63,550 bases of DNA, from positions 1 to 63,550 of the IMG/VR virus record IMGVR_UViG_3300038856_000075. One strand, given 5' to 3'. Shown in pieces: positions 7,319 to 62,101 of this stretch. The notes beneath the pieces are model-generated. The model saw nothing but the letters and a program-made list of their open reading frames with translations, did no database searches and had not been told where the DNA came from. Numbering within the stretch: position 1 is the first letter of the stretch; each line of letters starts with the position of its first letter. Origin of the DNA: a virus. Both the position numbers and the translations under genes were made by a program.

Positions 7319-7326
7319 CACGACGC
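7306..7326. repeat. 21-bp gene-boundary repeat, copy 1
   Basis: Identical to 8771-8791. Both span a TGATG stop/start overlap, and on the minus strand both encode a gene start reading MRAH. The shared border implies exchange of gene modules at this junction. Confidence 0.75.
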
Positions 7327-24953: not shown

Positions 24954-27575
24954 TTAAATCTGATCCCAGGCGAAAGTTAAGGTCTCGGCAGCCAAAAGAC
25001 CCCTAGTGGCGCCCACTTCCACTTCCATCACCAGGACCAAGAAGTCGCCGATATATTCGCTCGGAGATCCCTGGGTATAGGGCCCGGGAAAGTGGAAATC
25101 CAGATCGATGGGCGAGGCCGCGGTCGTGCTGAAAAGATCCTGCATGGCTGATGTGGGAGAGCCAGTCGAAGGGTACTCAGGTGGGTCAAAGGCTTCATTC
25201 GGAACGGCCGGCGCCACATAGCCCGCCGAAGTGGCATACCAGATTTTCTCGGTTTCGGGTGATTGTCCTTGGAAACCCTGCCCATCCGAGTAGGCGCGCA
25301 GATTATCGATCTGCGTATAGGCCTGCCCATTGTCGCGAAGGCGAAGGTATTTCTGGTAGGAGTATTCCTGGCCGGACGTTGGCACGATGAGGGGGGCGCT
25401 GGTGTCCAGAGTCGCGTCGTCGGCATTTTTGAAGCGAACACTATCCGACGTCTTGTCGGTAGGTGTTCCTGGGGCGGGGCCGTTCAGTTCGATAATACTA
25501 ATGGTGCCACCGCCGCCGGCGCTCGTCTCCGGCGGCGTCAGCCCGGCCGTGGTGTCGATCTGCACCCAATCCACGGCCCCGTTCGGACCTGACACGCCCT
25601 GGATATTTATGACGAAATTCGTCGTCGTGCGGTACACGCCAACAGCGGTGGCCTCGGTCGTGTCCAGGACGGTCTCGGCGTCGAGCGACAGCGTGATGTC
25701 GCCCGTGAGCCCGTTCCAGGTCATTATGGCAGTGTGATATGCGCCATCGAACGGGTTGGCGGTGGGAACGGAGCCGTCATAATTCAGTCGGGACTGGCCC
25801 TGTAGCTCTAGGCTCGCTCGTAGCGCGCCCGTGCCCAGGACCGTCAGGCTCGGGCATTGCGCGCCGCCGTCGATTATGACCCCTCCCGCCGACGAGTCGT
25901 ATTTGAACCGGACCTGCATACGGAGCATCTGGAAGCCGGAAATCCAGGTGTCCGCGAACGAACCGAAGGCCACCCGTGGGTAGGACGCGCTTCCCGGCAC
26001 GAACGTCGCCGCACGGTTTGGCCCGCCCTCTACGTCCTCGTACGCTTCTGTGCCGGTGAACTCCCATACGGCCTGATCCGGTGGCTTGCCGACGATGCCC
26101 GCCGAGGGCACGGGGTTGAAGCTGCTCAGCACGTCATCGGCGAAATCCAGCCGGAAGATGTTGTAGTGATCCAGCCGGATGGATCGGGTCAGCCCATCAG
26201 CCGTGATGGTGTATTCCCCCGCTTCGGCATAAACGTGCGTCGGTTGGTCCTCGGTCGAGGTCTTTCCGTTCCCAAAGTCCCACGTCCCGACGCTCTGCAA
26301 CGCCTGTGTCGCGTAATTGCGCACTGCGAAGTCGCCTTGCAGCGCTGCGTGCTGACGGTGGTAGGCCGTGAAGTCAATGTAATTGGTCGGGGCCATGCTG
26401 GGTATTTGCGCGCCGCGCGTCTGCGTCTTGCCCGGCAACACGTCGTACTTGGTGATGTCGCGCACCAGTTCGGCCCCTATCGGGTCCACCAACCACCTGT
26501 CGAAGTAATCCGGCGTGGCCGGGAAAAGATTGTTGATGACGGTGTTGCCGGTGCCCTCGTCAAGCACGGAGGTAATCGGCCTGGCGACGATGTTCTCCTG
26601 CACCACGTTGGCATCCGCCCCGGTGCCCTCGCCCGAGAGCGTTATGCCGGGCCGCGCTTGATCGTTGGCGAACTCTTGATTACGGCGGAAATGGACCAGC
26701 GTGTTGTGGTCGATTACGCATTTGTCGCAATTGCCAATTGCAATCCCTTCCGCCGCATTAAGGTGAATGATGTTGTCGTGGATCAGCCACCCAACATGAC
26801 GACCGGAGGCGGGGTTCTCGAAAAATATGCAATTGTTGTCCGTCTGGCCGGCGGTTTCGGTCGTGGTGTTCAAGGACCAGAAATGGTTCTCGTAAATTTC
26901 ACAGTCTAGGCTGCCTCTGCCCACCGACGAGCCGGACCCGCTCTGATAGAAATCAGCATGAGCGCCCAACGGAGGAAAGCTGCCGTTGTTGAAGTTGCGC
27001 CGAACGATCAGCCTGATCTGCCCGGACTGCTGGAAGAAGCCGTCGCCCTCGCGGTCGAGGATTTCGTTGTCTTCGATGATACAGTCCGTGCAATCGTCAA
27101 TCGTGATGCCCGTCTGGACGTCCTGGATGATACACGAGGCGACGGAACAGCGGACGCACTCGCCCGCGTTGTAGCCAATGCGGACGCCGCTGATGGGCTT
27201 GTTGGGCGACGGTGTCCCGGCGGGCGTGCTCTTTATCAGGCACCGCTTGATGTGGGTGTCGATGCACTTGAACATCTCGACGCAGAACCCGACCCCCGTC
27301 GTGTTGCCGCCGTCAAGAATTTCGACGGTTCCTCCAGTGACGATGGACGCCCCATCGACGGTGAGGAAGGTCCACCCATCAATGCTGATCTTGGTGAACG
27401 TCGCCGTGACGCCGGTATCCGCCCGAATTACAACCTCGCTGCCGTAGGTCTGAGGGGTTGCAGGCGTCCAACTTCCGTAGCTGCCGTCCGTCGTAAGGGT
27501 AACGGTATCGCCACCCGACGACGCGGCCAGCGCGGTGTCGAGTTCGGTGGTATCGGCGGCGGTGCGATCAGTCAT
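24954..27575 (-). CDS. Tail fibre/spike with beta-helix, PKD and LamG-like domains
   Basis: 873 residues. Residues about 5-370 form a parallel beta-helix of repeated short strands (ITIDDCTDCIIEDNEILDR, CDKCVIDHNTLVHF), as in phage pectate-lyase-like spikes. A PKD domain follows (WDFGNGKTSTEDQPTHVYAE, about 435-470), then a concanavalin/LamG-like region (about 510-680). The last 185 residues, starting ISIIELNGPAPGTPTDKTSD, are about 80 percent identical to the stand-alone protein 52162-52722. It is the last large gene of the late operon and probably the receptor-binding or polysaccharide-degrading distal fibre. Confidence 0.85.
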   Translation of the reverse strand: MTDRTAADTTELDTALAASSGGDTVTLTTDGSYGSWTPATPQTYGSEVVIRADTGVTATFTKISIDGWTFLTVDGASIVTGGTVEILDGGNTTGVGFCVEMFKCIDTHIKRCLIKSTPAGTPSPNKPISGVRIGYNAGECVRCSVASCIIQDVQTGITIDDCTDCIIEDNEILDREGDGFFQQSGQIRLIVRRNFNNGSFPPLGAHADFYQSGSGSSVGRGSLDCEIYENHFWSLNTTTETAGQTDNNCIFFENPASGRHVGWLIHDNIIHLNAAEGIAIGNCDKCVIDHNTLVHFRRNQEFANDQARPGITLSGEGTGADANVVQENIVARPITSVLDEGTGNTVINNLFPATPDYFDRWLVDPIGAELVRDITKYDVLPGKTQTRGAQIPSMAPTNYIDFTAYHRQHAALQGDFAVRNYATQALQSVGTWDFGNGKTSTEDQPTHVYAEAGEYTITADGLTRSIRLDHYNIFRLDFADDVLSSFNPVPSAGIVGKPPDQAVWEFTGTEAYEDVEGGPNRAATFVPGSASYPRVAFGSFADTWISGFQMLRMQVRFKYDSSAGGVIIDGGAQCPSLTVLGTGALRASLELQGQSRLNYDGSVPTANPFDGAYHTAIMTWNGLTGDITLSLDAETVLDTTEATAVGVYRTTTNFVINIQGVSGPNGAVDWVQIDTTAGLTPPETSAGGGGTISIIELNGPAPGTPTDKTSDSVRFKNADDATLDTSAPLIVPTSGQEYSYQKYLRLRDNGQAYTQIDNLRAYSDGQGFQGQSPETEKIWYATSAGYVAPAVPNEAFDPPEYPSTGSPTSAMQDLFSTTAASPIDLDFHFPGPYTQGSPSEYIGDFLVLVMEVEVGATRGLLAAETLTFAWDQI

Positions 27576-31644: not shown

Positions 31645-33665
31645 CAGGTAATGCTCCCGTCATCGATGGTGACTTGCGGCGAACCGACATCCGTGATCAA
31701 GCCGTCGTCGGCGGTCGGACTGCCGGCCACCTCGGTGATCAAGCCGTCGTCGGCGTTGACCTCGGCAGCGGTCGAGCCGATTTCGTACATCAATTCTGTC
31801 TGCCAGACCGACGCTCGAACGCCGAGCGAGTTGACGCCCCGGATGCGGAAATCGACGAACTCGCCGAACTGGAACACGGCGACGGCGACGAAGGTGCTCT
31901 TCTGGTTACCGGCGACGAAGAACGACGGATTCCACGACGACGACCCCGACCGCTTCCATTGGATCTCGAGCTGCCCGCCGGATGTCACGAAGACATCGGC
32001 GGGCGACGTCCAACTCATGGCGAGCTGATAGATTTTGTCGCTCGCCAGCGTCATCGACGTGATCGTGCGCGGCGTCAGGCTCGTCGGGTTGGCGACGGCA
32101 AACGGGTCGGGCAAGGTCGACCCCGGCGGCACGCTGACCTCGTTCTCTTCCGCCGTCCACGCGAAAACCGTCGAATCGTATTCGCGCAATTCGAGATCGA
32201 TGCCGAGATAGACTTCGCCGGCCTCGTCCCGGTCCTGGGCGAATTTCCAGGTGGTGACGAGAAACGTCTTGGCTTCCCAGCCGAAGCGGTCGTAGGTCAC
32301 GGCGATGGTGTCGCCGACGCGGATCCGGAACGCGGTGAGCTTGCATGGCAGAATCACGCTGATCTGGCGCCGGACCTTCTCCATCTCGATCTTGGCGATC
32401 CGCTGCGCGGCGGCCGACCGGATCTGAAACGGTTGGGGAAAGTCGAACCAGATGCGTTCGCCGTTGTCCTCGTCCTCGTAGGTCGTCGAGGTGATTGGCG
32501 GATAGTCGGTCGCCTGCCAGTTGTGCGATGGCGAAACGTAGACGCCCTTGACGGCGTTGAACAGATTTCGCCGCGTGATCCGGGTCGTGATGCGCGGATG
32601 GCCACGGAGATCCGATGCCGTGATCGGGACGGTCGCGGCGGAAAACGACCCCGCCAATATCGACCACACGCCGCCGGAATAGATGAAGTCACCGGCGAAC
32701 GAAGTCCGAAGGTTCTCGATCGCCTGGTCCGGAGATTCGGCCGTATCCATCACACCGTTGGCGGTGTAACGAAGCTCTTGCGTCTCCGGCGATCCCGCGA
32801 GAGCCACCGCTTCGTCGCTGGTATCGGCCGCGGTCGAAAAGCTGTCCATGTCGATTGCCGTATCGGCGACGTTGACGCCGTACCGCCGGACGACCGTTCC
32901 GGTCCCGTCCTTCGCCGGCACGCCGCGAAGATAGTCGAGGGCGACCAACGCGGCATTGTCGGACCACCCCCAGGTGTCGGGGTCGTCGGGGTCCTGCGTC
33001 GGCGAGCCCCGCATGTCGTATATCTTGCGCCCCTTGACGACGGCAGAGATGTTGGGGAGCTGCAAAAACTTGTCGGTGTCGAACTCGAGCCTGACATAGA
33101 GATAGCAGGCGCCGCCGCCCTTGACGGTCGAATCCGCGCTGGTCTCCGACGTGAGATCGCTGTCGGCGGTCTGGTTGTAGGCGCCGAGGTGCTTTTTGAT
33201 GCGGACGAGATTGGCGTATTTGCCCGTGGTGACGATGCCGTTGGCGTCGAGATCAGCGGCGGTTATGACCACGTCATCGAGCCAGACGTCGCCGATCTCC
33301 TGATAAGGACCGCCCACGCCGAGCGTTCCGACGACATGGAGGAACTGGTTGCTGACGCCCGTCGATTCGACAAAGTTGATGAACGCGCCGACCCGCGCCT
33401 GGCCGTAGATCACCTTGTGGGTCTCGATGGCTTGCCGGACGTTGATGGTCCTCGACGACAGATTGGCCAGCGAGTTGAAATCGGTTCGCGGCGGTTTCGG
33501 CGTAAGGAGGCGGCTCACACCGCCGACGAGACCGCTGATGATAAACGTATTCGAGAGGAAGATCAGCCCTGAGATCACGAACGCGCTGGCGCCGACGACG
33601 ATACCGACGCCGGCCGTGACGCCGGCGGCGATACCGACGGCGATCAAGGATCCCGAGATCGCCAT
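31644..33665 (-). CDS. Tail tip/hub protein (gpJ-like)
   Basis: 673 residues. A hydrophobic N-terminal stretch (VGIAAGVTAGVGIVVGASAF) precedes the hub domains: SSRTINVRQAIETHKVIYGQ, VWLDDVVITAAD, a tail-hub beta region and a fibronectin-like C-terminal part (about 530-620). This order is typical of the tip attachment protein of siphoviruses with a membrane-like N-terminus. The extreme C-terminus has three repeats of ADDGLIT(E/D)V. It would form the central tail tip that contacts the host. Confidence 0.85.
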   Translation of the reverse strand: MAISGSLIAVGIAAGVTAGVGIVVGASAFVISGLIFLSNTFIISGLVGGVSRLLTPKPPRTDFNSLANLSSRTINVRQAIETHKVIYGQARVGAFINFVESTGVSNQFLHVVGTLGVGGPYQEIGDVWLDDVVITAADLDANGIVTTGKYANLVRIKKHLGAYNQTADSDLTSETSADSTVKGGGACYLYVRLEFDTDKFLQLPNISAVVKGRKIYDMRGSPTQDPDDPDTWGWSDNAALVALDYLRGVPAKDGTGTVVRRYGVNVADTAIDMDSFSTAADTSDEAVALAGSPETQELRYTANGVMDTAESPDQAIENLRTSFAGDFIYSGGVWSILAGSFSAATVPITASDLRGHPRITTRITRRNLFNAVKGVYVSPSHNWQATDYPPITSTTYEDEDNGERIWFDFPQPFQIRSAAAQRIAKIEMEKVRRQISVILPCKLTAFRIRVGDTIAVTYDRFGWEAKTFLVTTWKFAQDRDEAGEVYLGIDLELREYDSTVFAWTAEENEVSVPPGSTLPDPFAVANPTSLTPRTITSMTLASDKIYQLAMSWTSPADVFVTSGGQLEIQWKRSGSSSWNPSFFVAGNQKSTFVAVAVFQFGEFVDFRIRGVNSLGVRASVWQTELMYEIGSTAAEVNADDGLITEVAGSPTADDGLITDVGSPQVTIDDGSIT

Positions 33666-34123
33666 CAGCCGATCCGCTTATAATATATCCGCTCCATCGG
33701 CTCGTAGCCGAGTCTGACGAACAGCGCCTCCCGATCAGACGCGATTTTTTGGTGGTAGCCGACGACCTGCACTCCGAACCGCTTGAGCGCGCGCTCGGCG
33801 GCCATCAGCATCCTGGCGCCGTTGGCACCCCCGCGGTGCGCCGGGTGCAGGTAGTGCGCCGTGTCCCGCGCCAGCCGGATCGGCCGGTAATGGAGCATCG
33901 CGGCGACATTGTGGGCGACGTAGCCGACCAACTCGTCGCTGTCGTCACGCGCCGTCATCAGGAACAGCGTGCCTTGCGCTTCCATGTGTCGGTAGCGCGG
34001 CCAGTCGATGTCCAGCGGCAGTTCGCCTTTGAACATGCCCAATTCCTCGAACGCGAGTTCCGTGAGCGTCAGGCATTCGGGCTCGACGTCGGCGAGGCGC
34101 TCGACCTGAAACGTGAGCGTCAT
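33665..34123 (-). CDS. GNAT-family acetyltransferase
   Basis: 152 residues from ATG 34123 in a TGATG overlap. LVGYVAHNVAAMLHYRP, the acetyl-CoA loop HPAHRGGANGARMLMAAERA and VQVVGYHQKIASDREALFVR then LGYEPMERIYYKR are typical GNAT motifs. It sits between tail genes; related enzymes occur at this position in other phages. It may modify a virion or host protein. Confidence 0.8.
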   Translation of the reverse strand: MTLTFQVERLADVEPECLTLTELAFEELGMFKGELPLDIDWPRYRHMEAQGTLFLMTARDDSDELVGYVAHNVAAMLHYRPIRLARDTAHYLHPAHRGGANGARMLMAAERALKRFGVQVVGYHQKIASDREALFVRLGYEPMERIYYKRIG

Positions 34124-34683
34124 CAGGTGCGCCCCCACTTGAGCACGACGTCCTGGATGGTCGAGACCTGATCGAAGAAGGTGTCGCCGGTGAAGTATTT
34201 CTTGTGGTCTTCGGGCGTATACCGGAACACCCGCGGACGCTCAAGGTCGATCAACTCGTTTTCGATGGTCATCGAGATCGTCGCCGTCGTCTCCTGTTCA
34301 TCGATCTCCATCACGTCCATGCGGCCCGAGAACACGAGCGTGGGATCGCCGGTCAGTTTCGCGTCGACATCGAGCGTGCCGAAATAGAACAGCGCCGGCC
34401 GTCCTTGATAGTTCTGGTTGAAGGCGATCGCGAGGATGTCCGACGGAATGCCCGATAACACGAACTTGACCCCGGCCGCCCGGACGCGGATGGTTTCCTC
34501 GACCGGCGACACCTTGCCGAAGTTGCCGACGCCCGCCCAGGTCTTGCCGTCCCACGACAGGTTGCCGAACCCGGTCCAGAAATTGACGGTGCCGCCACTG
34601 AATTGCATCTCGACGAGAAAGATCGGATAAAGCGACTCGGCGAGAGTATCGGCCTCGACGCCGGCATCGACGGCCCGGCTCAT
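34123..34683 (-). CDS. Tail protein (186 aa)
   Basis: LVEMQFSGGTVNFWTGFGNL then VSPVEETIRVRAAGVKFVLS and YQGRPALFYFGTLD. This all-beta protein is regularly found next to the distal-tail protein in GTA-like and lambda-like siphoviruses. It probably forms part of the baseplate ring. ATGA-coupled with its upstream neighbour. Confidence 0.7.
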   Translation of the reverse strand: MSRAVDAGVEADTLAESLYPIFLVEMQFSGGTVNFWTGFGNLSWDGKTWAGVGNFGKVSPVEETIRVRAAGVKFVLSGIPSDILAIAFNQNYQGRPALFYFGTLDVDAKLTGDPTLVFSGRMDVMEIDEQETTATISMTIENELIDLERPRVFRYTPEDHKKYFTGDTFFDQVSTIQDVVLKWGRT

Positions 34684-38852: not shown

Positions 38853-39266
38853 TCAGGTCGCCGAGTAGGTCATCACCCCGTTGTTTTCGAGCGTGACGTT
38901 GTACTCGGTAGCGTTGTTGAAGCCGCCCGAGATGTTGAACGACGACACCGTAAAGTTGCCGATGTAGTTCGAATTCGAGCTGTTGAGCACGACCTGGCAT
39001 TCGACGTCCGTGCCGTTCTCCCATGCGTTGCGGATGATATCGAGTCCGGTGGTGTCGGGCCAATCCGCCTTGCCGCGGACGTTGATCGTCATCCGGCGCA
39101 GGACGTTGAGCGTCGATCCCCAACCCTGCTGGTCCTTATCGGTGATGTCATCGGTTTCCGTAGGCCCCGTCATCTCCGTGACCTGCTGACCCGCCAGCGT
39201 CGCGAAGCTGGTCGGCGAGCCCGCGCTGACTTTCAACAGAACATTCGTTCCCGCTTCCTTGGACAT
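38853..39266 (-). CDS. Major tail (tube) protein
   Basis: 137 residues. VLLKVSAGSPTSFATLAGQQ, ETDDITDKDQQGWGSTL, a long beta-rich centre and the C-terminal ISGGFNNATEYNVTLENNG are typical of TP901-1-like siphovirus tube proteins. It sits directly upstream of the tail chaperone pair. It would polymerise into the tail tube. Confidence 0.85.
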   Translation of the reverse strand: MSKEAGTNVLLKVSAGSPTSFATLAGQQVTEMTGPTETDDITDKDQQGWGSTLNVLRRMTINVRGKADWPDTTGLDIIRNAWENGTDVECQVVLNSSNSNYIGNFTVSSFNISGGFNNATEYNVTLENNGVMTYSAT

Positions 39267-39278
39267 TCGACTTCCTTC

Positions 39279-39998
39279 CTATCGATATCGATGGTGACGC
39301 GCAATCGAGGGCCGCGCGTAGGCCCACCACTCGTCGGCGTAGGCCAGCGAGTCGTCCAACATGTCGGGCGTCCCCCTCGTGTAGTGGACGACCTTGGGTT
39401 CGGTTTCCTCGGGCGAATAGCCCTCTAGCCAATTCCAGCCAGCCGGCAAGGATCCGATCTCGCCGTCATCGACCCAGAACATATTGTGGAGATAGCTGCC
39501 GTCCTGGTTATTGACGGCGTACTTGGTCAGCCGCCGACAGCGAGACGGCTTCAATAGCATGACCGACGACCAATTCTTGCGCGGGTACTTGCTTTGCAGC
39601 AGCCCGCCCATCTTCAGCCGCTCGACCGGATCGTGGCGCTGCTTGACGCACATCGCGGCGTATCTGTCGTCGGCGAGCGCGAACAGCTCGGCCACGTCCG
39701 CGCGCCACATCAGGTCGGCGTCGCCGAACAGCACCCATTCGTCGCCATAGCCCTCGATCAGCGGGACCAGGAACCGGCTGAACGAGAAATCGGTCGAGAA
39801 CTCCTTGCCGTCGCGCTCGTCGTACCGCTGGCCTCGTCTGTCGGTGTAATAGGCGCGGTAGTAGAGGCCGTCGCGGCGGAGATCCCAGTCGCGCAGCGGC
39901 ACAATCTCGACCGGTGCCGACGCGTGGCGCAGCATGGATGCGACGTTCACGTCATAGGCCAGCGCATCGCGGCCATCCCATCCGAGATAGACGCGCAT
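39279..39998 (-). CDS. Glycosyltransferase, GT-A fold (family 8-like)
   Basis: 239 residues from ATG 39998 (TGATG overlap; a GTG at 40010 is also possible). RVYLGWDGRDALAYDVNVAS opens the nucleotide-binding half, WVLFGDADLMWRADV gives the metal-binding DxD motif, and KVVHYTRGTPDM matches the C-terminal H-x motif of family-8-like enzymes. It would transfer a sugar from a nucleotide donor. Last gene of the glycan island, adjacent to the tail tube gene. Confidence 0.75.
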   Translation of the reverse strand: MRVYLGWDGRDALAYDVNVASMLRHASAPVEIVPLRDWDLRRDGLYYRAYYTDRRGQRYDERDGKEFSTDFSFSRFLVPLIEGYGDEWVLFGDADLMWRADVAELFALADDRYAAMCVKQRHDPVERLKMGGLLQSKYPRKNWSSVMLLKPSRCRRLTKYAVNNQDGSYLHNMFWVDDGEIGSLPAGWNWLEGYSPEETEPKVVHYTRGTPDMLDDSLAYADEWWAYARPSIARHHRYR

Positions 39999-40768
39999 CA
40001 GCCCGGCCACTTCATGATCCAGTCGCCGCCATAGTCCTTGACCAAAACGGCGCCGAGCGATTGCAGATATTTCCCGGCCGCATTGCGCTCCTGGCCGTGG
40101 AACTTTGCTTCGTTACCCTTCTGCTCGATGACGACCGCGGGCCTGTTGCGCAGCAGCGTCTCGCGCGCGCCTTTGACGACCTCGATCTCGTAGCCCTCGA
40201 CATCGATCTTGACGAGGTCGACACGGTCGAACGCGTATTCGTCGAGTGGAGCGATGTCGACGGTCTCCGTTTCGACCGGCGCGTCGGTGACGATGCCGAG
40301 CCGGCGCCGTTCCTTGTGCGCGATGTCGTCGAGGGCGTCCGCGTCGGCGCCGATCACGTGGGCATTGCCCGTGTTCAAGTGATCGAGGACGATCCGGGCC
40401 GACCCGCGCGCTTCGCCGAGCCCGATGTGGTGGAGCACGACGTTCGGCGCGGTCACGTTCATCCCGAACAGGCTGCGGTGCAGCGACAACGGCTCGAAGG
40501 CATGGACTTCTTCGAACATCCCGGCCAGGTGCATCGACCATAGGCCAATGTGCCCGCCGACATCCACCGCCACGCGGCGGCGGTCAGGCGGGACGACGGT
40601 ATTCATCGCATAGCGCAGCTTGTGCAACTGGTACGAGCCCACAACCCGGCCGTCGGGGAGACTCACGTCACCGATCTTGGAATGGTTCTCGACCATCGAC
40701 GAAAGGTGCTTGTCGTGCTTGGGGAACCAGATCCCCTTGATCATCTTGGCTTCAAGGCCGCCGGTCAT
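39998..40768 (-). CDS. FkbM-family methyltransferase, copy 1
   Basis: 256 residues. AdoMet-binding motif VAVDVGGHIGLWSMHLAG and post-motif VHAFEPLSLHRSLFGMNV, then DLVKIDVEGYEIEVVKGA and PAVVIEQKG, are the FkbM signature. These enzymes O-methylate sugars or sugar-linked groups. Paralogous to 44644-45357. Both share an N-terminal (N/K)GIW(F/L)P start. Confidence 0.85.
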   Translation of the reverse strand: MTGGLEAKMIKGIWFPKHDKHLSSMVENHSKIGDVSLPDGRVVGSYQLHKLRYAMNTVVPPDRRRVAVDVGGHIGLWSMHLAGMFEEVHAFEPLSLHRSLFGMNVTAPNVVLHHIGLGEARGSARIVLDHLNTGNAHVIGADADALDDIAHKERRRLGIVTDAPVETETVDIAPLDEYAFDRVDLVKIDVEGYEIEVVKGARETLLRNRPAVVIEQKGNEAKFHGQERNAAGKYLQSLGAVLVKDYGGDWIMKWPG

Positions 40769-41606
40769 TCAGCGTCTCCTCTATTGCGGTGACCGCTTCG
40801 TCCGCGGTGATTTCCTTGGCGATGGCCGCGCAGTGGCCACAGCTCACGCGCATGCCGCAGGGCGAGCCCCCGCCGCGATAGAGCGCGCGCTGCCCGTCAT
40901 ACCCGGTCGTTGTCGGCGAGATGTAGCCGCCGTGATAAACCACCGCCGGGACGCCCAGCGCCGCCGCCGCGTGGTGCAGCCCGCCCTCGGTGCCGATGTA
41001 GATCTCGGCCTGCGCGAGCACGGCGCAGGCATCGCGGAACGTGGCCGTGCGGATCGCAATTGCGTCCGGCAAACGCCGCGCCGGGTTGAACTGCACGATG
41101 GGCATGGCCAGGGCCCGGGCGGCCTCGATATAGCGTTCCCACGGCCATGCCTTGTTGGGAGAGGCGCCGTTCTTGACCCCGGCCTCGATCACGGCGAACG
41201 GCCCCAGGCCTTCCGTGACGCTTCGCGCGCGGGCCCGCTCCATTGTCGTCAGCCGGAGTTCACCTGGCCCGGCGGATTTGACCGACCAGTCGGTGAACCG
41301 CCAGGGCAGTTTCGGATCCCGCACCTTCATCGTGAATTGGCGGCCGGGGAACAGGTTGGCGAACTCGGTCTCCATCCGCGCCCTGTCCACATAGGGGCGG
41401 TGCCCGCTGTAGTTCACCAGCCATGCCACCGGCGTGCCGCGGTCCAGGTCCGCCTGTGCCGCGATATGTGGGTTGTGGCGGAACACCTCGATCTCGGGCG
41501 GCCCCATGCGCAACCTGTGACCGTCGCCGACCGCCACCTTGCGGCCGGTGTTTGCATGCAGCTCTCTTGCCTGCGCCGAGACCATCAGCGCGTCGCCGTA
41601 GCCCAT
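40752..41606 (-). CDS. Glycosyltransferase family 9 (heptosyltransferase-like)
   Basis: 284 residues from ATG 41606 with AGGA upstream. An N-terminal NMGYGDALMVSAQARELHA (nucleotide-binding loop) and the C-terminal YIGTEGGLHHAAAALGVPAV are family-9 hallmarks. A cysteine pair near the end (PCGMRVSCGHCAA) may bind metal. Family members add heptose or related sugars to lipopolysaccharide cores; the acceptor here is unknown. Confidence 0.8.
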   Translation of the reverse strand: MGYGDALMVSAQARELHANTGRKVAVGDGHRLRMGPPEIEVFRHNPHIAAQADLDRGTPVAWLVNYSGHRPYVDRARMETEFANLFPGRQFTMKVRDPKLPWRFTDWSVKSAGPGELRLTTMERARARSVTEGLGPFAVIEAGVKNGASPNKAWPWERYIEAARALAMPIVQFNPARRLPDAIAIRTATFRDACAVLAQAEIYIGTEGGLHHAAAALGVPAVVYHGGYISPTTTGYDGQRALYRGGGSPCGMRVSCGHCAAIAKEITADEAVTAIEETLNDRRP

Positions 41607-41668
41607 ATTGTTCGATTTTCCTGGTTCCAGGTCTCGATGCGCCGGCTCGTCACCGGGAAGCGGCCTAT

Positions 41669-42460
41669 TTAGCCGTGCACGGCGCGCTGACGGGCCTTGG
41701 CCGCCTGTCCGGCCCCCTGGGACGCCAGAACCGCCTCGACGCGCGCAACGTCGCCCGGAGCGTCGACTGAGAAGTATTTCCGATCCCGTCCGATTTTCAC
41801 CGCGATGACCGGGACGGTATTGTCCAGCCACCGGTTCATGTCGCAGGATTCGGCGCGCTCCAACAGCGATGGGCGGCAAAGGGCGAACTCGCTCAAAATC
41901 TCGACAGTGAAGCCGAAGACCCCGCCGACGCGCCATCCAAAGAGGCTGTCTCCCGGCAACCGGTCGGACGGAATCGGCTGCCTAGAAGTGTAGAGCACGC
42001 GATCATTGCGGTTGGTCACCAGCTTGACCGTGTTGGGGTCGTGGAACTGGCCGGAATCGGCGATCGGCGCGGCCAGCACGACCGGATAGGCGGCGCGAAT
42101 CAACTCGGCCATGATCTCGATATCGCCGGTCGAAATCAGCGGTTCGTCGGCCTGGACGCAGAGCATCATGGCTTTTCCGTCGAGACCCATGATCTCCGCC
42201 GTCTCGGCGACGCGCTCGAGCGCGCGTTCGTGAAGAGGGCTCGTCATGATCACGCCGCAGTCGTCGGCCCGATAGCGGGAGGCGACGAAATCGGCTATTT
42301 CCGCGTCCGGCGTCGCGACCACCAGACTGTCGAACGCATAGCCGAGCGAGGCATCAATCGCGTATTGGATCATCGGCTTGCCGGCGATGCGGTGTAGTGG
42401 CTTCCCGGGAAAGCGCGACGACGCCATGCGGGCCGGGATCACGCCGAAGACTTGCCTCAT
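41669..42460 (-). CDS. CMP-Kdo synthetase-like cytidylyltransferase
   Basis: 263 residues. The N-terminal VIPARMASSRFPGKPLHRIA is the CMP-sugar synthetase motif, followed by CVQADEPLIS and DPNTVKLVTNRNDRVLYTSR, then the C-terminal KYFSVDAPGDVARVE. This matches KdsB (3-deoxy-manno-octulosonate cytidylyltransferase) or a close homologue activating another acidic sugar. It supplies the activated donor for the island. Length is near the usual 250. Confidence 0.85.
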   Translation of the reverse strand: MRQVFGVIPARMASSRFPGKPLHRIAGKPMIQYAIDASLGYAFDSLVVATPDAEIADFVASRYRADDCGVIMTSPLHERALERVAETAEIMGLDGKAMMLCVQADEPLISTGDIEIMAELIRAAYPVVLAAPIADSGQFHDPNTVKLVTNRNDRVLYTSRQPIPSDRLPGDSLFGWRVGGVFGFTVEILSEFALCRPSLLERAESCDMNRWLDNTVPVIAVKIGRDRKYFSVDAPGDVARVEAVLASQGAGQAAKARQRAVHG

Positions 42461-43059
42461 TTCGGTAGCCTCTTGAGACGGCTGACCGTCATGTGCAGAA
42501 TCGCCATGAAGGCGTCCTCGATCGGGCCGTCGTCGGGTTCGGTCGGCACGTGCACATTGATCGACGCCATGCCCCTGAGGCCGCCGCCGTCGCTACCGGT
42601 CATCGCGATCGTCCGCAGCCCCATCTCTTCCGCGGCCCGTATCGCGTTGATCACGTTCTCGGATTGGCCGGACCCAGACAGCCCAACCGCGATGTCGCCC
42701 GGTTGCGCCAACACGCGGAGCTGGCGTTCAAATATCGCCTCGTATCCATGGTCGTTGCCGACGCCGGTCAGCGCCGCGGCGTTGGCGGCCAGGCTGTACG
42801 CGCGCAGTCCGGGCGTGATCGCAACCGACAGGTCGTTGGCCCATTCGTCGGCCAGGGCCGCCTTGCCGCCGTTGCCGAAGAAGTAGACCGCCATCCCCCG
42901 AATGCGCGCGCCCCGGAGCGCGATGATCATCTCCGCCAAGCTTTCCGATTTCACGTTCGACAGGACCTCGCCCAGATAGCGGAAATAGGACTGCGCGAAA
43001 TCGCCGTGGCGGTGGTACCGGTCGTGCATCCGATCTAGTTGCGTTTCCCGATCGCTCAT
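42457..43059 (-). CDS. SIS-domain sugar isomerase (GmhA-like)
   Basis: 200 residues from ATG 43059. AVYFFGNGGKAALADEWAND, AGLRAYSLAANAAALTG-type and VGLSGSGQSENVINAIRAAE motifs define a SIS domain closest in layout to phosphoheptose isomerase. It would convert a keto-sugar phosphate to heptose-7-phosphate or an analogous aldose. It is adjacent to the cytidylyltransferase, so together they may make an activated sugar. Confidence 0.8.
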   Translation of the reverse strand: MSDRETQLDRMHDRYHRHGDFAQSYFRYLGEVLSNVKSESLAEMIIALRGARIRGMAVYFFGNGGKAALADEWANDLSVAITPGLRAYSLAANAAALTGVGNDHGYEAIFERQLRVLAQPGDIAVGLSGSGQSENVINAIRAAEEMGLRTIAMTGSDGGGLRGMASINVHVPTEPDDGPIEDAFMAILHMTVSRLKRLPK

Positions 43060-43841
43060 GCTTCGTTCAGATCCCTCCATGCAGTTCCGTCCCCGATCTC
43101 GACCGCTGTCCACTGGTTCGCGGCCAACCACGCCGCCCATTCGGCCCGTCCGTCCGGGCGCGGCGGATCCTCGATCCGCGACAGATCGCGGCCGGCCATC
43201 GGCGATGCCGCGCATTTTGCCGTCACGAACGCCGGAACCCCCGCCAGGAGGGCCTCGACGGCGACCCGCGAATCGAACGTCACCACCGCCCAGGCCAGCG
43301 CGAGCGCGACCTCGAACGGCATTTCACCGGGCTTGCGCAGGGGCTTGTCACGGACGATGATCGGGCGGTCCGTGTATTGGCGCAGCGACGCCATCGTCTC
43401 GCTCAGCCACCGGTCGCGGGTCAGCCCGCCGCCATGCAGGTCGAAGTGATAGGCCGATTGCAGGCAGACGAGAATGTCGCGGCCGTTGCGGTGCCAGGGC
43501 CGGATGGGCGGCATATACCGGTCCCGCCGGTCCGCATCACCGCGCCCGATCTCCGTCACTTGCCGCGCGTTGCGCGTGATCCGGAATATCTCGGTCGGTT
43601 GCCCGTCCGCCTTCGCCGGCCCCGGCGCATAGCCGTTGTCGCCGTAGTAGTAGGTCGTCCGCGTCCCCTGGGCCTGGGCCCACAGCACTCTCTGGCGCGG
43701 CGTGATGCCGTAGAAGAACGCCTCGCCGGGAAACAGTGTCTTCGCGTTCTGCGCGATGCGCCCGGCGCAGCCCGACGCGAACAGCCTGGCGAGACGGCGC
43801 GATTTCCGCTTGGCGGAATCGACGTAGCACCAGACGGTCAA
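43056..43841 (-). CDS. KpsS-like/GT-B-like protein, paralog 3
   Basis: 261 residues from TTG 43841, overlapping the previous stop as TTGA. FFYGITPRQRVLWAQ, YYYGDNGYAPGPAKADG, FRITRNARQ, RPIIVRDKPLRKPG and WAVVTFDSRVAVEALLAGVP are shared with the island proteins at 45333 and, more distantly, 43838. The closing block resembles the C-terminal donor site of capsule-type GT-B transferases. Exact activity unknown. Confidence 0.65.
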   Translation of the reverse strand: MTVWCYVDSAKRKSRRLARLFASGCAGRIAQNAKTLFPGEAFFYGITPRQRVLWAQAQGTRTTYYYGDNGYAPGPAKADGQPTEIFRITRNARQVTEIGRGDADRRDRYMPPIRPWHRNGRDILVCLQSAYHFDLHGGGLTRDRWLSETMASLRQYTDRPIIVRDKPLRKPGEMPFEVALALAWAVVTFDSRVAVEALLAGVPAFVTAKCAASPMAGRDLSRIEDPPRPDGRAEWAAWLAANQWTAVEIGDGTAWRDLNEA

Positions 43842-44647
43842 CCAAGTAACTTCCCGAAGGCGGTTCCGTCCTCGAACTCGCGAGTCGACCACTGCGCCCA
43901 TGACAGTTCCACGAACGCGGGCGCGCGGTCGCCCATGAACGGCTTCTCGACCACCGCGATCCCGCGCCGCGCCGCCTGCCGGGCGACGATGGCGGGGCCG
44001 CAGAATATTGCCGGGATGCCAGCGAGAAGCGCGTCGGTCGCCGCGTTCGACGTGAATACCACCACCGCCCAGGCGTCGGCGAGATGCTCGGCGATGGGCT
44101 CATCGAAATCCAATACGCGGTCGTAACCGCCCTTGGGCATCACCGCCCGGCGCTTGGGATGTGGCCGGTACCAGAGGGGCCGATCGGTGGCCGACCGCAG
44201 TTCCCGCGCGATGTCGTCCGGCCATGTGTTCGGCATCGCCATCTCGTTGTAGCCGAAGCCGCGCTGGCCGCAGACTAGGATGTGATCGCCGTCCTCGCGC
44301 CATGGCGCCACAGGGATATCCCAAGACTGCCACCGTTCGGGACTGCCGACGCGCCAGCGGCCGAAGCCGTTGTGCCCGCCGAGCGCGCAGGCGAAGTATT
44401 TCTCGCCCCCGATATTGCGGATGTAGGCTTCCTCGAACACGAGGGCGTCGCCGCCCGCCGCGATGAAGCGCCGCGTGGCATCGTAAGATGGCCCATAGGC
44501 GTTCCACGTCAGCACCAGGTCGTCGCGCTGCGGCTGCTGGCTGGCGCCCTCGATCACATCGTAGCCGATGGCGCGGAGGCCGGCCTTGAAGCATTCGTGC
44601 CGGCCGTCCTCGAACCGCGACGGCAGCAGGCTGAATGCCCGCTTCAT
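43838..44647 (-). CDS. KpsS-like/GT-B-like protein, paralog 2
   Basis: 269 residues. LVLTWNAYGPSYDATRRFIA, VFEEAYIRNIGGEKYFACAL, DHILVCGQRGFGYNEM, RPLWYRPHPKRRAVM and WAVVVFTSNAATDALLAGIP match the shared pattern of the three paralogs. It may be a glycosyl or glycosyl-phosphate transferase. ATGA-coupled to the FkbM gene. Confidence 0.65.
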   Translation of the reverse strand: MKRAFSLLPSRFEDGRHECFKAGLRAIGYDVIEGASQQPQRDDLVLTWNAYGPSYDATRRFIAAGGDALVFEEAYIRNIGGEKYFACALGGHNGFGRWRVGSPERWQSWDIPVAPWREDGDHILVCGQRGFGYNEMAMPNTWPDDIARELRSATDRPLWYRPHPKRRAVMPKGGYDRVLDFDEPIAEHLADAWAVVVFTSNAATDALLAGIPAIFCGPAIVARQAARRGIAVVEKPFMGDRAPAFVELSWAQWSTREFEDGTAFGKLLG

Positions 44648-45357
44648 TCGCCGGCCCAGCCGAAGAAGTAATCGCCCTTCATGCCGGGCCGGAGTTCGAC
44701 CGCGCCCCAGTCGCGCAGCAGGTCAAGTGCGGCGCCGGGCGTCTCGCCGTAGCGCTGCTCCCAGCCCACGCTTTCGACGATCACGGTCGGGCGGGAGTCG
44801 CGGATCGTCTTCTCGGCGCCCATCAGCACCTTCACCTCGTAGCCCTCGACGTCGATCTTGATCAGGTCGACGTTTCTGAGGCGCAGGCTGTCCAGCGGAC
44901 GGACCTCGGTGACGACGTCGTCGCCCTCGTAATCGGGTGCCGCGGATTCCTCGCCGATATGCGCGCGGCCGGATTGGGCGTTGCCGCTTTTCATCAGGAC
45001 CGTCGCCTTGCCGTCGCCCAGCGCGTAGCGGTGCAGGTCGAGGCGGTTGGCGTTCGCGCCCGTGATATTGCGCATCAGCACCTTGCAATGGGCCGGCATC
45101 GGCTCGAAGGCGTGGACCTTGCGGAAGATGTCGACCATCCACATCGACCATAAACCGACATGCGCGCCGGCATCGACGAATACGCGCCGACCCTTGGTGA
45201 CCTCGAGCGCCGCCTTCATATGGTGCCAGCCGAGGGCGGGACGGCCGTCGAACACGGGGCGCTTGTATCTCTTGCACGGCGCCGTCAGGGCCGCGGCGTA
45301 GTGCTCGTCATCGGCGGGCAGCCAGATGCCGTTCACGCGCTTCGAAGGTCTATCCAC
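44644..45357 (-). CDS. FkbM-family methyltransferase, copy 2
   Basis: 237 residues from GTG 45357, with AGGAG upstream; an in-frame ATG at 45390 would lengthen it but overlaps more. VFVDAGAHVGLWSMWMVD, VHAFEPMPAHCKVLMRN, DLIKIDVEGYEVKVLMGA and PTVIVESVG define the family. Paralog of 39998-40768. O-methylation of a sugar is the likely reaction. Confidence 0.85.
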   Translation of the reverse strand: MDRPSKRVNGIWLPADDEHYAAALTAPCKRYKRPVFDGRPALGWHHMKAALEVTKGRRVFVDAGAHVGLWSMWMVDIFRKVHAFEPMPAHCKVLMRNITGANANRLDLHRYALGDGKATVLMKSGNAQSGRAHIGEESAAPDYEGDDVVTEVRPLDSLRLRNVDLIKIDVEGYEVKVLMGAEKTIRDSRPTVIVESVGWEQRYGETPGAALDLLRDWGAVELRPGMKGDYFFGWAGE

Positions 45358-46112
45358 GCTTTGCCGCTCCTGAACTCGTCCAGTGTCCATTGATTCGCCG
45401 CCAGGACCGCCAGCCATTCATGGCGGTTGTCCGGGTAGACCGGCCGCTCGACCTCCCGGATGTTGGTGCTCCCCACCACGGCAGCGGGCGTCGCCCCGGT
45501 CACAAAGACCGGCACGCCGGCGACGATCGCCTCCGTGGTCACGTTGCTGTTGTGCGTGACGAGGCACCACGCGCCCGCTAGGTGTTCGTCAAGCGGGGGC
45601 TGGTATCGGTCGAGGCGTCCGTCGCCCGGCTTGAATCTGATGACGATCTTCCGGTCAGTCATCTGGGCGAGAACGCGCTTGGTTTCGTTCAGCCATTCGA
45701 CGACGTCGAAATGCCAGAACTTGCCGTAGTACGCGATCGGCGGGCAGACCAGCACATAGCCTCCGGCCTTGCGCCACGGCGCGATTTCGATGCCGAGCCG
45801 GTCGAGCCTGTCGAAGTCCGGCCGCCCCCCGCCGTCGCACAGGAAGGCGTTGCGCGTGATCCGGAAATAGCCGTCGTAATGGCCCGGGCCCATGTATCCG
45901 TTGTCGCACAGATACCAGTCGCGCCCGGCCATGATGCACCTGTCGCGGATCAAGTGGTTGTGCCGGGCGATGCCGTAGAAGAACGCCGGGTTATCGTCCT
46001 TCCTCAGCCCGTCGCCCGACCACACCATCCCTGCCCCGGTGCCGGCCTTCATCGCCGAGCAAATGATCTCCGACTTCGGGTGGCCGGTGCAGTAGATCGT
46101 GAGCCCGGTCAT
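45333..46112 (-). CDS. KpsS-like/GT-B-like protein, paralog 1
   Basis: 259 residues from ATG 46112 (ATGA overlap). TIYCTGHPKSEIICSAMKAG, FFYGIARHNHLI, YLCDNGYMGPGHYDG, FRITRNAFLCD, KIVIRFKPGD and WCLVTHNSNVTTEAIVAGVP then EWLAVLAANQWTLDEFRSG define the family, shared with the proteins at 43838 and 43056. The HNSNV...AIVAGVPVFV block resembles the donor-binding end of capsule/teichoic-type transferases. Confidence 0.65.
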   Translation of the reverse strand: MTGLTIYCTGHPKSEIICSAMKAGTGAGMVWSGDGLRKDDNPAFFYGIARHNHLIRDRCIMAGRDWYLCDNGYMGPGHYDGYFRITRNAFLCDGGGRPDFDRLDRLGIEIAPWRKAGGYVLVCPPIAYYGKFWHFDVVEWLNETKRVLAQMTDRKIVIRFKPGDGRLDRYQPPLDEHLAGAWCLVTHNSNVTTEAIVAGVPVFVTGATPAAVVGSTNIREVERPVYPDNRHEWLAVLAANQWTLDEFRSGKAWIDLRSA

Positions 46113-47083
46113 GGGGCGGCGAAGAATTCCTCGGGCGTCTTTACCGGCATCTTCCCCTCGGGCCGAATGGTCGGATTGTCGTCGACCAGGAATTCCGGCT
46201 TGCCGAGCGCGATGGCACCGATCAGCCCATTGCTCTTGACGAAGCGGCGCGCGTATTCGGTTCCCGTGCCCGACCACACGACGATTTTCGCCCCGTCGTC
46301 CAGCATGCGGCGGACCATAGCGATGCGCTCGAGCAGCGGATTGCCGCCGGCGGTGCCGCGATCGGTCAACGTGCCGTCGATGTCGATGTAGACGGGCCGG
46401 TCGTTCATGGGCTCGAAAATGTCATGCAGGTTGACCTTCTTGAAGTACCCGAGCTTGCTTCCGGGCGTCGCGTTCAGGCATTCGATTCCCAATTCGTCCA
46501 GCGGCTTGACCAGGGTATCCATCAGCGGCGTCACGATGTTGCGGTAGAACCCGCCGGGCTTGTGAACCGTCTTCCGCAGGTCGTGCGGATGATGGCCGAA
46601 CCAATGACTCTTGCCGTCGCGCCATTCGTCGTCGAAGTCGAAGCCAATCAAAACGATCCGCGCCACGCCGGTATGCACGGCGATGTTGATCACCTGATGG
46701 CCGGATTGGCGGCCAGTTCGAATGCCGTTCGGCTTGAGGCATAGCCCGCCGTTGTCCTTGGCCGAGTCGTTGCGCAGTACCTTGACCGACGGGTCGACCT
46801 TGGTCACCTCGGCCGAGTTCTCGATCGTCACCTTGAGGCCGGCGAACCGCTTGATGTCGTCGGCGTTCGGCCAATTGCCCCACCAGCCGCTTTGTTCGTT
46901 GAACCACCGCGCGTCGGCGAAGTAGAGCATGTCGGCCCAGGGCGCGAGGCGGAAGGTGTCGTTGACGCAGATCAGGCGCGCCCGGCCGCGGCAGAAATCG
47001 ACCTGCTCCTGCGTCGGAAAGCCGTTGCCGACGATGACCACCGTCTCGCCGGCCCACATGCGGGGAACGGACCAAATGTCCAT
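46109..47083 (-). CDS. Fusion of a sialyltransferase/MptE-like domain and a HAD phosphatase-like domain
   Basis: 324 residues. The N-terminal 230 residues (ETVVIVGNGFPTQEQV, CVNDTFRLAPWADMLYFADA, VARIVLIGFDFDD, KSHWFGHHP) resemble DUF115/MptE- or GT29-like proteins that bind nucleotide-sugar-type ligands. The C-terminal 95 residues start PVYIDIDGTLTDRGTAGG (HAD DxDGT) and continue AKIVVWSGTGTEYARRF. The fusion suggests sugar transfer coupled to a phosphatase. First gene of the glycan island; the start lies three bases beyond a tRNA-like 3' end. Confidence 0.7.
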   Translation of the reverse strand: MDIWSVPRMWAGETVVIVGNGFPTQEQVDFCRGRARLICVNDTFRLAPWADMLYFADARWFNEQSGWWGNWPNADDIKRFAGLKVTIENSAEVTKVDPSVKVLRNDSAKDNGGLCLKPNGIRTGRQSGHQVINIAVHTGVARIVLIGFDFDDEWRDGKSHWFGHHPHDLRKTVHKPGGFYRNIVTPLMDTLVKPLDELGIECLNATPGSKLGYFKKVNLHDIFEPMNDRPVYIDIDGTLTDRGTAGGNPLLERIAMVRRMLDDGAKIVVWSGTGTEYARRFVKSNGLIGAIALGKPEFLVDDNPTIRPEGKMPVKTPEEFFAAP

Positions 47084-47085
47084 GA

Positions 47086-47117
47086 TGGTTGCAGGGGTAG
47101 GACTCGAACCTATACGA
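47086..47117 (-). other. tRNA 3'-end fragment (T-arm and acceptor with CCA)
   Basis: On the minus strand the sequence contains GGTTCGAGTCC (T-loop with flanking stem) followed by an acceptor strand and GCA-A-CCA. The last bases resemble an initiator-type tRNA. No D-arm or anticodon arm fits in the 44 bases between the upstream stop and this site. It is a fragment, located exactly between the tail terminator gene and the first glycan-island gene. Confidence 0.6.
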
Positions 47118-47126
47118 TCCCCACCA

Positions 47127-47552
47127 TCAACTAGGCTCGGTGATGACGACGTACCGCGCCAAGCTCTCGCGCGTGAGCCCGTCCTGGTCGCGCGCCTCGT
47201 CCGACGACAGGAACTGCAACAACGTCACCTCATGGCCCGTGACCGATAGCGCGTGCCGATGCAAGGCGCCGTGAACGGCGGCCTGGATCTGGCGCACCCG
47301 GCCGAAGCCGCGATAGGTCGAGAACGCGGAAATGGTGAAAGTGATGGCAACGCCGGATTCGGACTTGTCGGAATCGTCGACCGCCGACATCGGTCCGATC
47401 GCGAGATAGCCGTCCTTCGAGCTCGACTCCGCGATCTCGCCGTCGGGCACGTCGTCATAGATCCGCGTCCCCACCAGCGCGGTCACCGCCGACACCGCCA
47501 GCAGGCGCGCGGCGACAGCCTGCTGGACTTCCCATCGGGAATCGCCGCTCAC
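47127..47552 (-). CDS. Tail terminator protein (DUF3168)
   Basis: 141 residues. VQQAVAARLLAVSAVTALVG, VPDGEIAESSSKDGYLAIGP and FTISAFSTYRGFGRVRQIQA are the DUF3168 pattern. The protein caps the tail tube and joins it to the head. It normally precedes the tail tube gene directly; here the glycan island separates them. Confidence 0.85.
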   Translation of the reverse strand: MSGDSRWEVQQAVAARLLAVSAVTALVGTRIYDDVPDGEIAESSSKDGYLAIGPMSAVDDSDKSESGVAITFTISAFSTYRGFGRVRQIQAAVHGALHRHALSVTGHEVTLLQFLSSDEARDQDGLTRESLARYVVITEPS

Positions 47553-60482: not shown

Positions 60483-60909
60483 TTCGGGAGAGGATGACCT
60501 CCAGGTGCGATAGCTCCGCGTCGGTGAGCTTGGTAAGATCGACATGTTGGATGGGACCACCACCGGGGCCTGTCACGCGGATCGCTTGGAAATCGCGCTG
60601 GCCCAGATATTGCTTGCCGAGGAAGATCGCCATCGAGGCGCTCGACTCGGCCTGCTGGAACTGCTTGCGGCGAAGGCTGATAAGTCCGGCCGCCTGCCCG
60701 CGCTCGAACGCCATGCGGTATTCGGGCTCCTTCAGACGGCGGACGATTGTCTTGCGGCAGACCCTGAAGAACGCCGCGATTTCCTGCTGGGTACATTGAA
60801 GCGCGGCGAGTTTTTCGAACTCGTCGATATCGATATCGGCCTTGTCTTCCCGTGGGTTTTTAGGCCGCTTTTTCGCCGTCTGTTTTGGCTTCGTCGAACG
60901 TCCTGCCAT
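60433..60909 (-). CDS. Terminase small subunit-like protein
   Basis: 158 residues from ATG 60909. A basic N-terminus (KPKQTAKKRPKNPREDK) precedes a helix-turn-helix region LAALQCTQQEIAAFFRVCRK then TIVRRLKEPEYRMAFERG, a coiled segment and a SSASMAIFLGKQYLGQRD helix, as in small terminase subunits. It would recognise the packaging site. Overlaps the methyltransferase end by 50 bp and the large subunit start. Confidence 0.8.
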   Translation of the reverse strand: MAGRSTKPKQTAKKRPKNPREDKADIDIDEFEKLAALQCTQQEIAAFFRVCRKTIVRRLKEPEYRMAFERGQAAGLISLRRKQFQQAESSASMAIFLGKQYLGQRDFQAIRVTGPGGGPIQHVDLTKLTDAELSHLEVILSRIAVAQSGPGSGGEGEA

Positions 60910-62095
60910 CGGATTCTCGTATTGCCTTTCGTCCAGTGAAATTCTGCCAGCGGGCGACAGCCACATCCACATAGGCGGGGTTGATCTCTATCGCGTGGCA
61001 GGACCTGCCCGTCATTTCAGCGGCGATGATGGTGGTTCCCGAGCCGCTGAACGGTTCGTATACGGCTTGGCCGGGGCTTGAATTGTTCTCTATGGGGCGT
61101 TTCATGCATTCGACGGGCTTCTGAGTTGGGTGCGGCGTTTTCTCTTCCTTGCTGCCGCCCATGATATGCAACGGGCTGGCAAAGTCCCAGACGGTTGTTT
61201 GCTTGCGGTCGCCAACCCAATGTCCGGCGTCCTTGACAGCATACCAGCACGGCTCATGTTTCCAGTGATAGTCACCGCGCCCCATTACCATTACTGACTT
61301 GTTCCAGATGATCTGCGAGCGCAACGTAAACCCGCACGCAGTAAGGCTTTCAGCCACGACAGGCGATTGTAACCCTCCATGCCACACATAGGCTATGGCG
61401 CCAGGAAACAGCGCCCACGCATCACGCCAATCGGCCCGTGTATCATTCTCAACAATGCCCGTCCTATTCTTACCCATCGTGGCGTGTCCAGCCTTGCCGC
61501 GCCACGTCGCATCATACTCCACCCCATAAGGCGGATCGGTCACCATCAGATGCGGCACCACGCCGTTCAGGCACTTGGCAACCGTGCCCGCGTCCGTCGA
61601 GTCGCCGCAGATCAGCCTATGCCGGCCCAGCAGCCAGATATCGGACGGCGAGGTGACGACAGATGTGGAATCCGGTTCCGGCACATCGTCTTCGTCGCCG
61701 CCGGTGCCTGTCAGCAGCTTGTTGATCTCGGCCGGATCGAAGCCCGTCAGGCCGAGATCGAAATCCTCGAGCCCTTTGATCTCAAACGATAGCAGATCAT
61801 CGTCCCACTTCGCCTGTTCGCCCGTCCGATTGTCCGCAATCCTATACGCCCTTGCCTGTTTCGCGGTCAGATCGACCGCGACCACGCATGGCGCCGAATC
61901 GAGGCCAAGGCTCTTCGCCGCCAGATAGCGTGTGTGGCCGACGATGATCACGCCATCCTTGTCGAGAACGATCGGCTGCTGAAACCCGAATTCCCTTATC
62001 GACGCCGCGACCTTCTCGACCGCAGCATCCGTGATCTTTCGAGGGTTGCCCTTGTAGGGCTTGATCTTGCTGAGCGGGCGATTTTCTGTTTTCAT
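60860..62095 (-). CDS. ParB-domain DNA methyltransferase
   Basis: About 411 residues from ATG 62095; a GTG at 62101 is possible. An N-terminal ParB-like domain (KPYKGNPRKITDAAVEKVAA, VIIVGHTRYLAAKSLGL, RAYRIADNRTGEQAKWD) is joined to a beta-class methyltransferase: catalytic TDPPYGVEYDATW, HEPCWYAVK, HPTQKPVECM and motif I EPFSGSGTTIIAAEM. DPPY suggests N6-adenine. It heads the packaging and structural oper on; methylating packaged DNA would protect it in the next host. Confidence 0.9.
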   Translation of the reverse strand: MKTENRPLSKIKPYKGNPRKITDAAVEKVAASIREFGFQQPIVLDKDGVIIVGHTRYLAAKSLGLDSAPCVVAVDLTAKQARAYRIADNRTGEQAKWDDDLLSFEIKGLEDFDLGLTGFDPAEINKLLTGTGGDEDDVPEPDSTSVVTSPSDIWLLGRHRLICGDSTDAGTVAKCLNGVVPHLMVTDPPYGVEYDATWRGKAGHATMGKNRTGIVENDTRADWRDAWALFPGAIAYVWHGGLQSPVVAESLTACGFTLRSQIIWNKSVMVMGRGDYHWKHEPCWYAVKDAGHWVGDRKQTTVWDFASPLHIMGGSKEEKTPHPTQKPVECMKRPIENNSSPGQAVYEPFSGSGTTIIAAEMTGRSCHAIEINPAYVDVAVARWQNFTGRKAIRESDGRTFDEAKTDGEKAA

Positions 62096-62101
62096 GGCCA
62101 C

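Follow-up and report, generated by a model that had tools for sequence, protein, structure and literature searches.

What is a set of ten sugar genes doing in the middle of a phage tail operon? The sequence considered here, called the window, is the entire IMG/VR virus record IMGVR_UViG_3300038856_000075 (63,550 bases), in which ten open reading frames (ORFs) for glycan enzymes run on the minus strand from 47083 to 39279, between the genes for the tail terminator and the tail tube. The original prediction was that these genes could build an activated, methylated sugar and put it on the tail or on a host surface polymer, and it knew of no standard phage module with such content and position. 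The first of these ideas was right, and is strengthened by the predicted folds of the enzymes, by empty slots in relatives and by a tail-only locus; the second was not, for the island is an example of a cassette that recurs and has apparently not been described before. Homologues of it share its slot and are also found, in many viruses, at two or more further sites in late operons; no paper describing it was found in the open-access literature. The earlier interpretation is thus partly supported. The explanation that we consider fairly probable is that the island serves to glycosylate the virion, as a movable, late-expressed cassette that acts most likely on the tail, with a methylated glycan derived from a CMP-sugar and made in the cytoplasm.

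The presence of the island between the two tail genes is solid. All ten ORFs are there, contiguous and mostly overlapping as had been described, and when the starts of three of them (g3, g8 and g10) are corrected to those given below, overlaps of 4 bp (of the ATGA, GTGA or TTGA type) are found at six of the nine internal junctions, the remaining three being -17, -1 and +62. The flanking genes also have the identities first assigned to them. The features are:

47127..47552, minus strand: tail terminator, the upstream flank (phrog_176, E 9.8e-9)
46109..47083, minus strand: g1, Maf/MptE/GT42-like glycosyltransferase fused to a HAD-like domain (phrog_4603 sialyltransferase, E 4.7e-28)
45333..46112, minus strand: g2, KpsC-like protein of type B (AlphaFold2 model, pLDDT 93; Foldseek matches KpsC 8fux, WbbB and KrkA)
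44644..45336, minus strand: g3, FkbM methyltransferase (PF05050, E 4e-19; TIGR01444 above cut-off)
43838..44647, minus strand: g4, KpsC-like protein of type A (aligns with Caulobacter phage proteins; hhalign to KpsC, E 7e-7)
43056..43841, minus strand: g5, KpsC-like protein of type B, a paralogue of g2 (37% identity, alignment A7)
42457..43059, minus strand: g6, SIS-domain sugar-phosphate isomerase, GmhA-like (PF13580, E 3e-14; GmhA in the PDB, E 3e-23)
41669..42460, minus strand: g7, KdsB-like CMP-sugar synthetase (PF02348, E 3.5e-33; KdsB in the PDB, E 1.8e-29)
40752..41606, minus strand: g8, heptosyltransferase-like glycosyltransferase of family GT9 (PF01075, marginal at 22.1 bits against a cut-off of 22)
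39998..40768, minus strand: g9, second FkbM methyltransferase (PF05050, E 8.9e-16)
39279..39998, minus strand: g10, GT8/GT24-like GT-A glycosyltransferase (phrog_28018, E 2.8e-49)
38853..39266, minus strand: tail tube (major tail protein), the downstream flank (phrog_1407, E 5.9e-19)

The late genes on this strand run in the order TerL, portal, protease, major capsid protein, Hc1, Neck1, terminator, the ten glycan genes and tube, with the chaperone, tape-measure protein (TMP), Dit and J genes following 3' of the tube, and the earlier reasoning that the island would be made together with the virion proteins was sound. The G+C content at third codon positions is 0.81-0.87 in the island genes and 0.80-0.89 in the structural genes, so a recent foreign block is not apparent. 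A simple sigma-70 scan gave no promoter or terminator inside the island above shuffled sequences, as a moron would have. The hydropathy profiles (in these and the third-position values the g3 row was left out) contain no membrane-spanning segment in any island protein, the maximum over 19 residues being 1.9 with one borderline peak in g2; polymerase and membrane proteins are lacking in the island, as are the flippase and membrane transferase of a gtr serotype-conversion cluster.

Chance, or a chimeric assembly from a bacterial locus, is rejected because the same gene order occurs at the same junction in independent assemblies. Profile scans with phrog_28018 found at least about 590 relatives in IMG/VR and 271 in GTDB genomes; single-sequence IMG/VR scans with g1 and with the tube gave almost no kin, and a search of a phage collection with the tube found nothing. 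Mapping the window proteins and iterative profiles onto loci gave 24 table rows, in which two places (L093/L200 and L121/L199) are entered twice; each row has at least two cassette families and at least two structural families, and the cassette is collinear with the structural genes in 24 of 24; these counts are not frequencies, because possession of the glycosyltransferase (GT) was the criterion by which loci were picked, and numerous other GT relatives sit in unrelated contexts. The homologous sets comprise MptE/Maf-like enzymes, pairs of KpsC-like proteins, GT9, FkbM and the phrog_28018 GT-A enzyme. They lie in slot A, between terminator and tube, with both flanks seen in the window and in the Kiloniellaceae contigs L093, L095, L096 and L100, with one flank seen in L003, L012, L092, L094 and L097, and also in the tail-only locus of L103 and L104. 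In slot B, between capsid and head-closure genes, they are found in L058, L091, L121 (where a KdsB gene is added), L176, L041 (read by eye), Tetraselmis virus S20 (MptE-like, GT and FkbM) and others. The nearest homologues in the phage collection, from the Caulobacter jumbo phages CcrSC and CcrColossus, form a set of MptE-like, two KpsC-like, phrog_28018, methyltransferase and GT9 genes between the last tail (tail-fibre) gene and the lysis genes; the head-tail adaptor and HK97 gp10 genes of Pseudomonas phage D14Q have a GT9 and a methyltransferase gene between them; and in one IMG/VR contig, whose tube is 54% identical, KpsC-like, GT9, FkbM and GT genes stand just upstream of the tube, one reverse-strand methyltransferase-like ORF separating cassette and tube. 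Two further arrangements were seen: in L193 the tube and chaperone are relocated beside the capsid and only MptE and FkbM follow the terminator, and in the short contig L099 the tube has cassette genes on either side (GT9-FkbM-GT-tube-MptE-KpsC-like).

The corresponding empty site is also known. A search with the window capsid against 61 genomes of the same order gave ten matches, and two prophages (L196 and L197) have the tube directly after the terminator, so that the island is missing there as a clean unit, which the original prediction had proposed to look for. An apparent intrinsic terminator, a hairpin with a T-run, lies between the two genes in L196 (3930-4050). In a tree of 70 GT sequences the window groups among the slot A cassettes (99/96), L103 and L104 fall within the slot B group, and the starred branches require slot A to have been entered at least twice. 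The recurrence of the cassette and of its slot is solid, and it bears on a reading in which the genes are hitch-hiking cargo, a moron-like block kept for the fitness of the lysogen and tolerated at tail-gene junctions. Some relatives do lie on long bacterial contigs (L093 has 394 kb) and cassette content differs among relatives, as that reading would have it, but the conserved core, the recurring late-gene sites, the lack of a promoter or terminator of its own, and the failure to find an integrase among the window proteins scanned all speak against it, and we think it quite improbable.

If the cassette modifies the virion, the part that it modifies is indicated by one locus:

L103 5783-20057, and L104: tail-only locus with terminator, glycan cassette and complete tail set, lying between bacterial genes (Cu-amine oxidase and LysR)

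L103 and L104 are two metagenome-assembled genomes of related strains, 90-94% identical. The order begins with an ABC transporter, a FadB-like gene, the Cu-amine oxidase and the tail terminator (phrog_4204), continues with a cassette of MptE-like, KpsC-like A and B, methyltransferase, GT9 and phrog_28018 GT genes, and ends with tube, chaperone, TMP (575 aa), Dit, DUF6950 (in the NlpC position), J, fibres and LysR; the stretch has no head genes. Every ORF is open in both genomes, the tube protein is identical, and the cassette, whose ratios of nonsynonymous to synonymous substitution are 0.09-0.20, is under purifying selection. The locus looks like one of the siphotailocin type, though it may instead be a remnant without a head or part of a split system. 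Since it keeps the cassette without head genes, the tail is indicated as the thing modified, and is the probable target.

An overlapping sub-case of the virion-glycosylation explanation is that the main acceptor is not the tube or tail shaft but the capsid, a fibre or a tail spike. Slot B adjoins the capsid gene, the jumbo phages carry the cassette beside tail-fibre genes, and capsid modification was proposed for the mycobacteriophage Corndog, in which an O-methyltransferase and three GTs lie between portal and protease (PMC4351075). The retention of the cassette in L103 and L104 is an argument against the capsid but not one against fibres, and we judge this version unlikely.

What the cassette might do to a tail is suggested by g1, which appears from its predicted structure to be closest in fold to a protein glycosyltransferase. 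The best match to the AlphaFold2 model of its N-terminal domain is Maf 5mu5 (Z 13.8, rmsd 3.6, 188 aligned), followed by MptE and CstII/CstI (Z about 10). Maf is a cytoplasmic protein glycosyltransferase that moves CMP-nonulosonic acids onto flagellin. The likeness of g1 to the Maf enzymes and the GT42 sialyltransferases is one of fold: g1 is much smaller than 5mu5 and has 11% identity to it, a PDB sequence search gave nothing useful, and the match to the Pfam MptE-like family PF01973, at 16.8 bits, is under the gathering score of 34.6. The C-terminal HAD-like piece (phrog_1238, E 5.5e-7, motif VYIDIDGTLTD), modelled at low confidence, is missing from the aligned relatives.

The three proteins first named KpsS-like are placed with the KpsC type by predicted fold and profile comparison, which point to retaining Kdo transferases, although none matches a capsule-synthesis family in Pfam or NCBIfam (PF05159 gave nothing up to E 0.1) and a PDB sequence search with the family was not useful. 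The fold was modelled for g2, whose match to KpsC 8fux has a Foldseek E of 5.7e-8 and whose best 15 VIA entries are all retaining Kdo transferases (KpsC, WbbB and KrkA, Z 10.2-13.0); g4 and g5 were placed by alignment, and profile-profile comparison of the KpsC-like genes with real KpsC gives E 7e-7 to 2.5e-6. The island proteins share fold and motif order with KpsC/KpsS, WbbB and KrkA but have about 260 residues and no evident catalytic Asp, and, unlike in KpsC/KpsS systems, capsule export genes are not nearby in the window. A PF05159 protein, L201, was not a KpsC and was dropped.

The remaining gene names hold to differing degrees. Both g3 and g9 belong to the FkbM family by its TIGR01444 and PF05050 cut-offs, whereas the KdsB-like and GmhA-like names are looser, g7 scoring 128.6 bits against 155.2 for the equivalog TIGR00466 and g6 scoring 108.7 against 209 for the NCBIfam GmhA equivalog. 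In alignment to 1vh3, g7 keeps the nucleotide and Mg motifs IPAR..SSR.PGKPL, DEPL and the C-terminal VD, with the SGTER stretch altered. The assignment of g8 to GT9 is marginal, its identity to the GT9s of related cassettes being 27-43%, and g10, in which D97 and D99 of the DxD motif are invariant in 23 sequences, has a weak match to WbbM/GT8 in the PDB.

Because most relatives of these enzymes act on lipopolysaccharide (LPS) or capsule, and because similar GT islands have been read in print as changing the host O-chain or capsule (PMC7029224, PMC7824862), modification of the host surface stays the main rival. It would be a late change to LPS core or capsule such that progeny are not trapped on debris or sister phages cannot adsorb, and at tail-only loci it would confer self-immunity; FkbM, GT9, KpsC, KdsB and GmhA all have their relatives there, and a passage in PMC9213528 describes Pseudomonas tailocin sensitivity as governed by O-polysaccharide. 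On the other hand, the genes overlap one another within a late tail operon, which is late for a block to superinfection; they have no promoter of their own with which to act in a lysogen; the island lacks a gtr-type membrane transferase, flippase and polymerase; and the fold of g1 is nearest that of a protein glycosyltransferase. We rate this rival as rather unlikely. Direct glycosylation of tail subunits is favoured because of the position, the tail-only retention, the absence of membrane steps and the combination of Maf-like and CMP-sugar enzymes.

In the scheme that we infer for direct tail glycosylation, the SIS isomerase and the HAD phosphatase would help to form an ulosonic-acid-like sugar from host precursors, and g7 would activate it as a CMP-sugar. 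The Maf-like g1, by analogy with Maf acting on flagellin, would then put the first CMP-activated sugar directly on side chains of new tail subunits in the cytoplasm; the KpsC-like g2, g4 and g5, the GT9 and the phrog_28018 GT-A enzyme would extend the glycan; and the two FkbM enzymes would O-methylate it, all while terminator, tube and tape-measure proteins are being made from what would be one shared message. A more specific version, which is possible but held only tentatively, is that this is glycosylation like that of flagellin, in which a CMP-ulosonate (Kdo-like) glycan is started on polymerising tail subunits by an enzyme of the Maf type and lengthened by enzymes of the KpsC type. The cassette would be mobile and would have settled time and again at the terminator|tube junction or the capsid|head-closure junction, also in a tail-only siphotailocin-like particle, whose tail would carry the glycan.

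Several points weigh against tail glycosylation. No particle of this kind has been seen to bear a glycan, and the usual substrates of FkbM, GT9 and KpsC relatives are lipid-linked LPS or capsule. There is no ulosonate synthase in the island, and the host would need to supply one. Under the numbering that we take to apply to the GmhA metal ligands, g6 differs at them, the aligned positions reading E, D, E and H, and the KpsC nucleophile Asp (D160) has no counterpart aligned by hhalign, the local alignment there being unsure. Enrichment of tubes in Ser/Thr, which would have been evidence for the acceptor, was not seen (0.16-0.22 with the cassette and 0.18 without), and similar cassettes adjoin very different tubes (27% in L100, 54% in L003); the acceptor may accordingly be something other than the tube.

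Some further features of the window were noted. A 25-nt stretch that resembles the 3' end of a tRNA from T loop to CCA, GGTTCGAGTCCTACCCCTGCAACCA, is present at 47086-47110 on the minus strand, in the junction between the terminator stop and g1 (47083..47129), as a single copy in the window. It is unrecognised by ARAGORN or Rfam and absent at those junctions of relatives that were read, and a reading as an att site is unsupported because it has no exact copy in GTDB genomes or IMG/VR. The Rfam scan gave no match at gathering level; a sub-threshold match to Atu_Ti1 (38.1 against 55 bits) lies opposite the HAD part of g1 at 46298-46404 on the plus strand. A beta-helix and PKD protein at 24954-27575 is a likely tailspike that binds or cuts surface polysaccharide, and a phrog_1249 acetyltransferase within the tail block (33665-34138) is possibly another sugar-modifying enzyme. 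A ParB-DNA methyltransferase fusion and several further DNA methyltransferases are encoded at 60860-62101 and 5399-8373; a DNA-modification role for the island was considered and support for it was not found.

Corndog is a published case of GTs inside a structural operon, and the nearest one for virion modification by such enzymes (PMC4351075). The location of the island GTs is that of a virion-glycosylation cassette of the Corndog/Che8 type, and Corndog-type phages (the cluster O mycobacteriophages) likewise combine O-methyltransferase and GTs there; they differ in the portal|protease slot, the four genes and the mycobacterial host, and KpsC-like, Maf-like, KdsB-like and SIS enzymes are not reported in Corndog. 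A passage of PMC12619734 citing Freeman 2023 states that mycobacteriophage capsid and tail tube bear glycans. The Caulobacter jumbo phages (Dolichocephalovirinae) share the late-region MptE/Maf-like, KpsC-like A and B, phrog_28018 GT and GT9 genes with the island at 30-37% identity, and CcrSC the methyltransferase as well; their cassette differs in lying at the tail-fibre|lysis border, and SIS, KdsB and HAD are not seen there. The LPS-gene islands of cyanophages and pelagiphages also bring sugar enzymes and GTs together close to genes for host recognition, but they occupy a plastic region of T4-like myophages rather than a fixed siphophage tail-operon junction.

Virion glycosylation is firmly established in few phages, and the cassette brings it within reach of tests in Gram-negative systems, laboratory Caulobacter phages among them, with a predicted chemistry of CMP-sugar, Maf-like start and O-methylation; the tail-only locus offers a system that excludes effects of head and genome. 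If the explanation is true, tails would be dressed by their own operon, which would bear on adsorption, on the recognition of particles and on the action of tail-derived bacteriocins.

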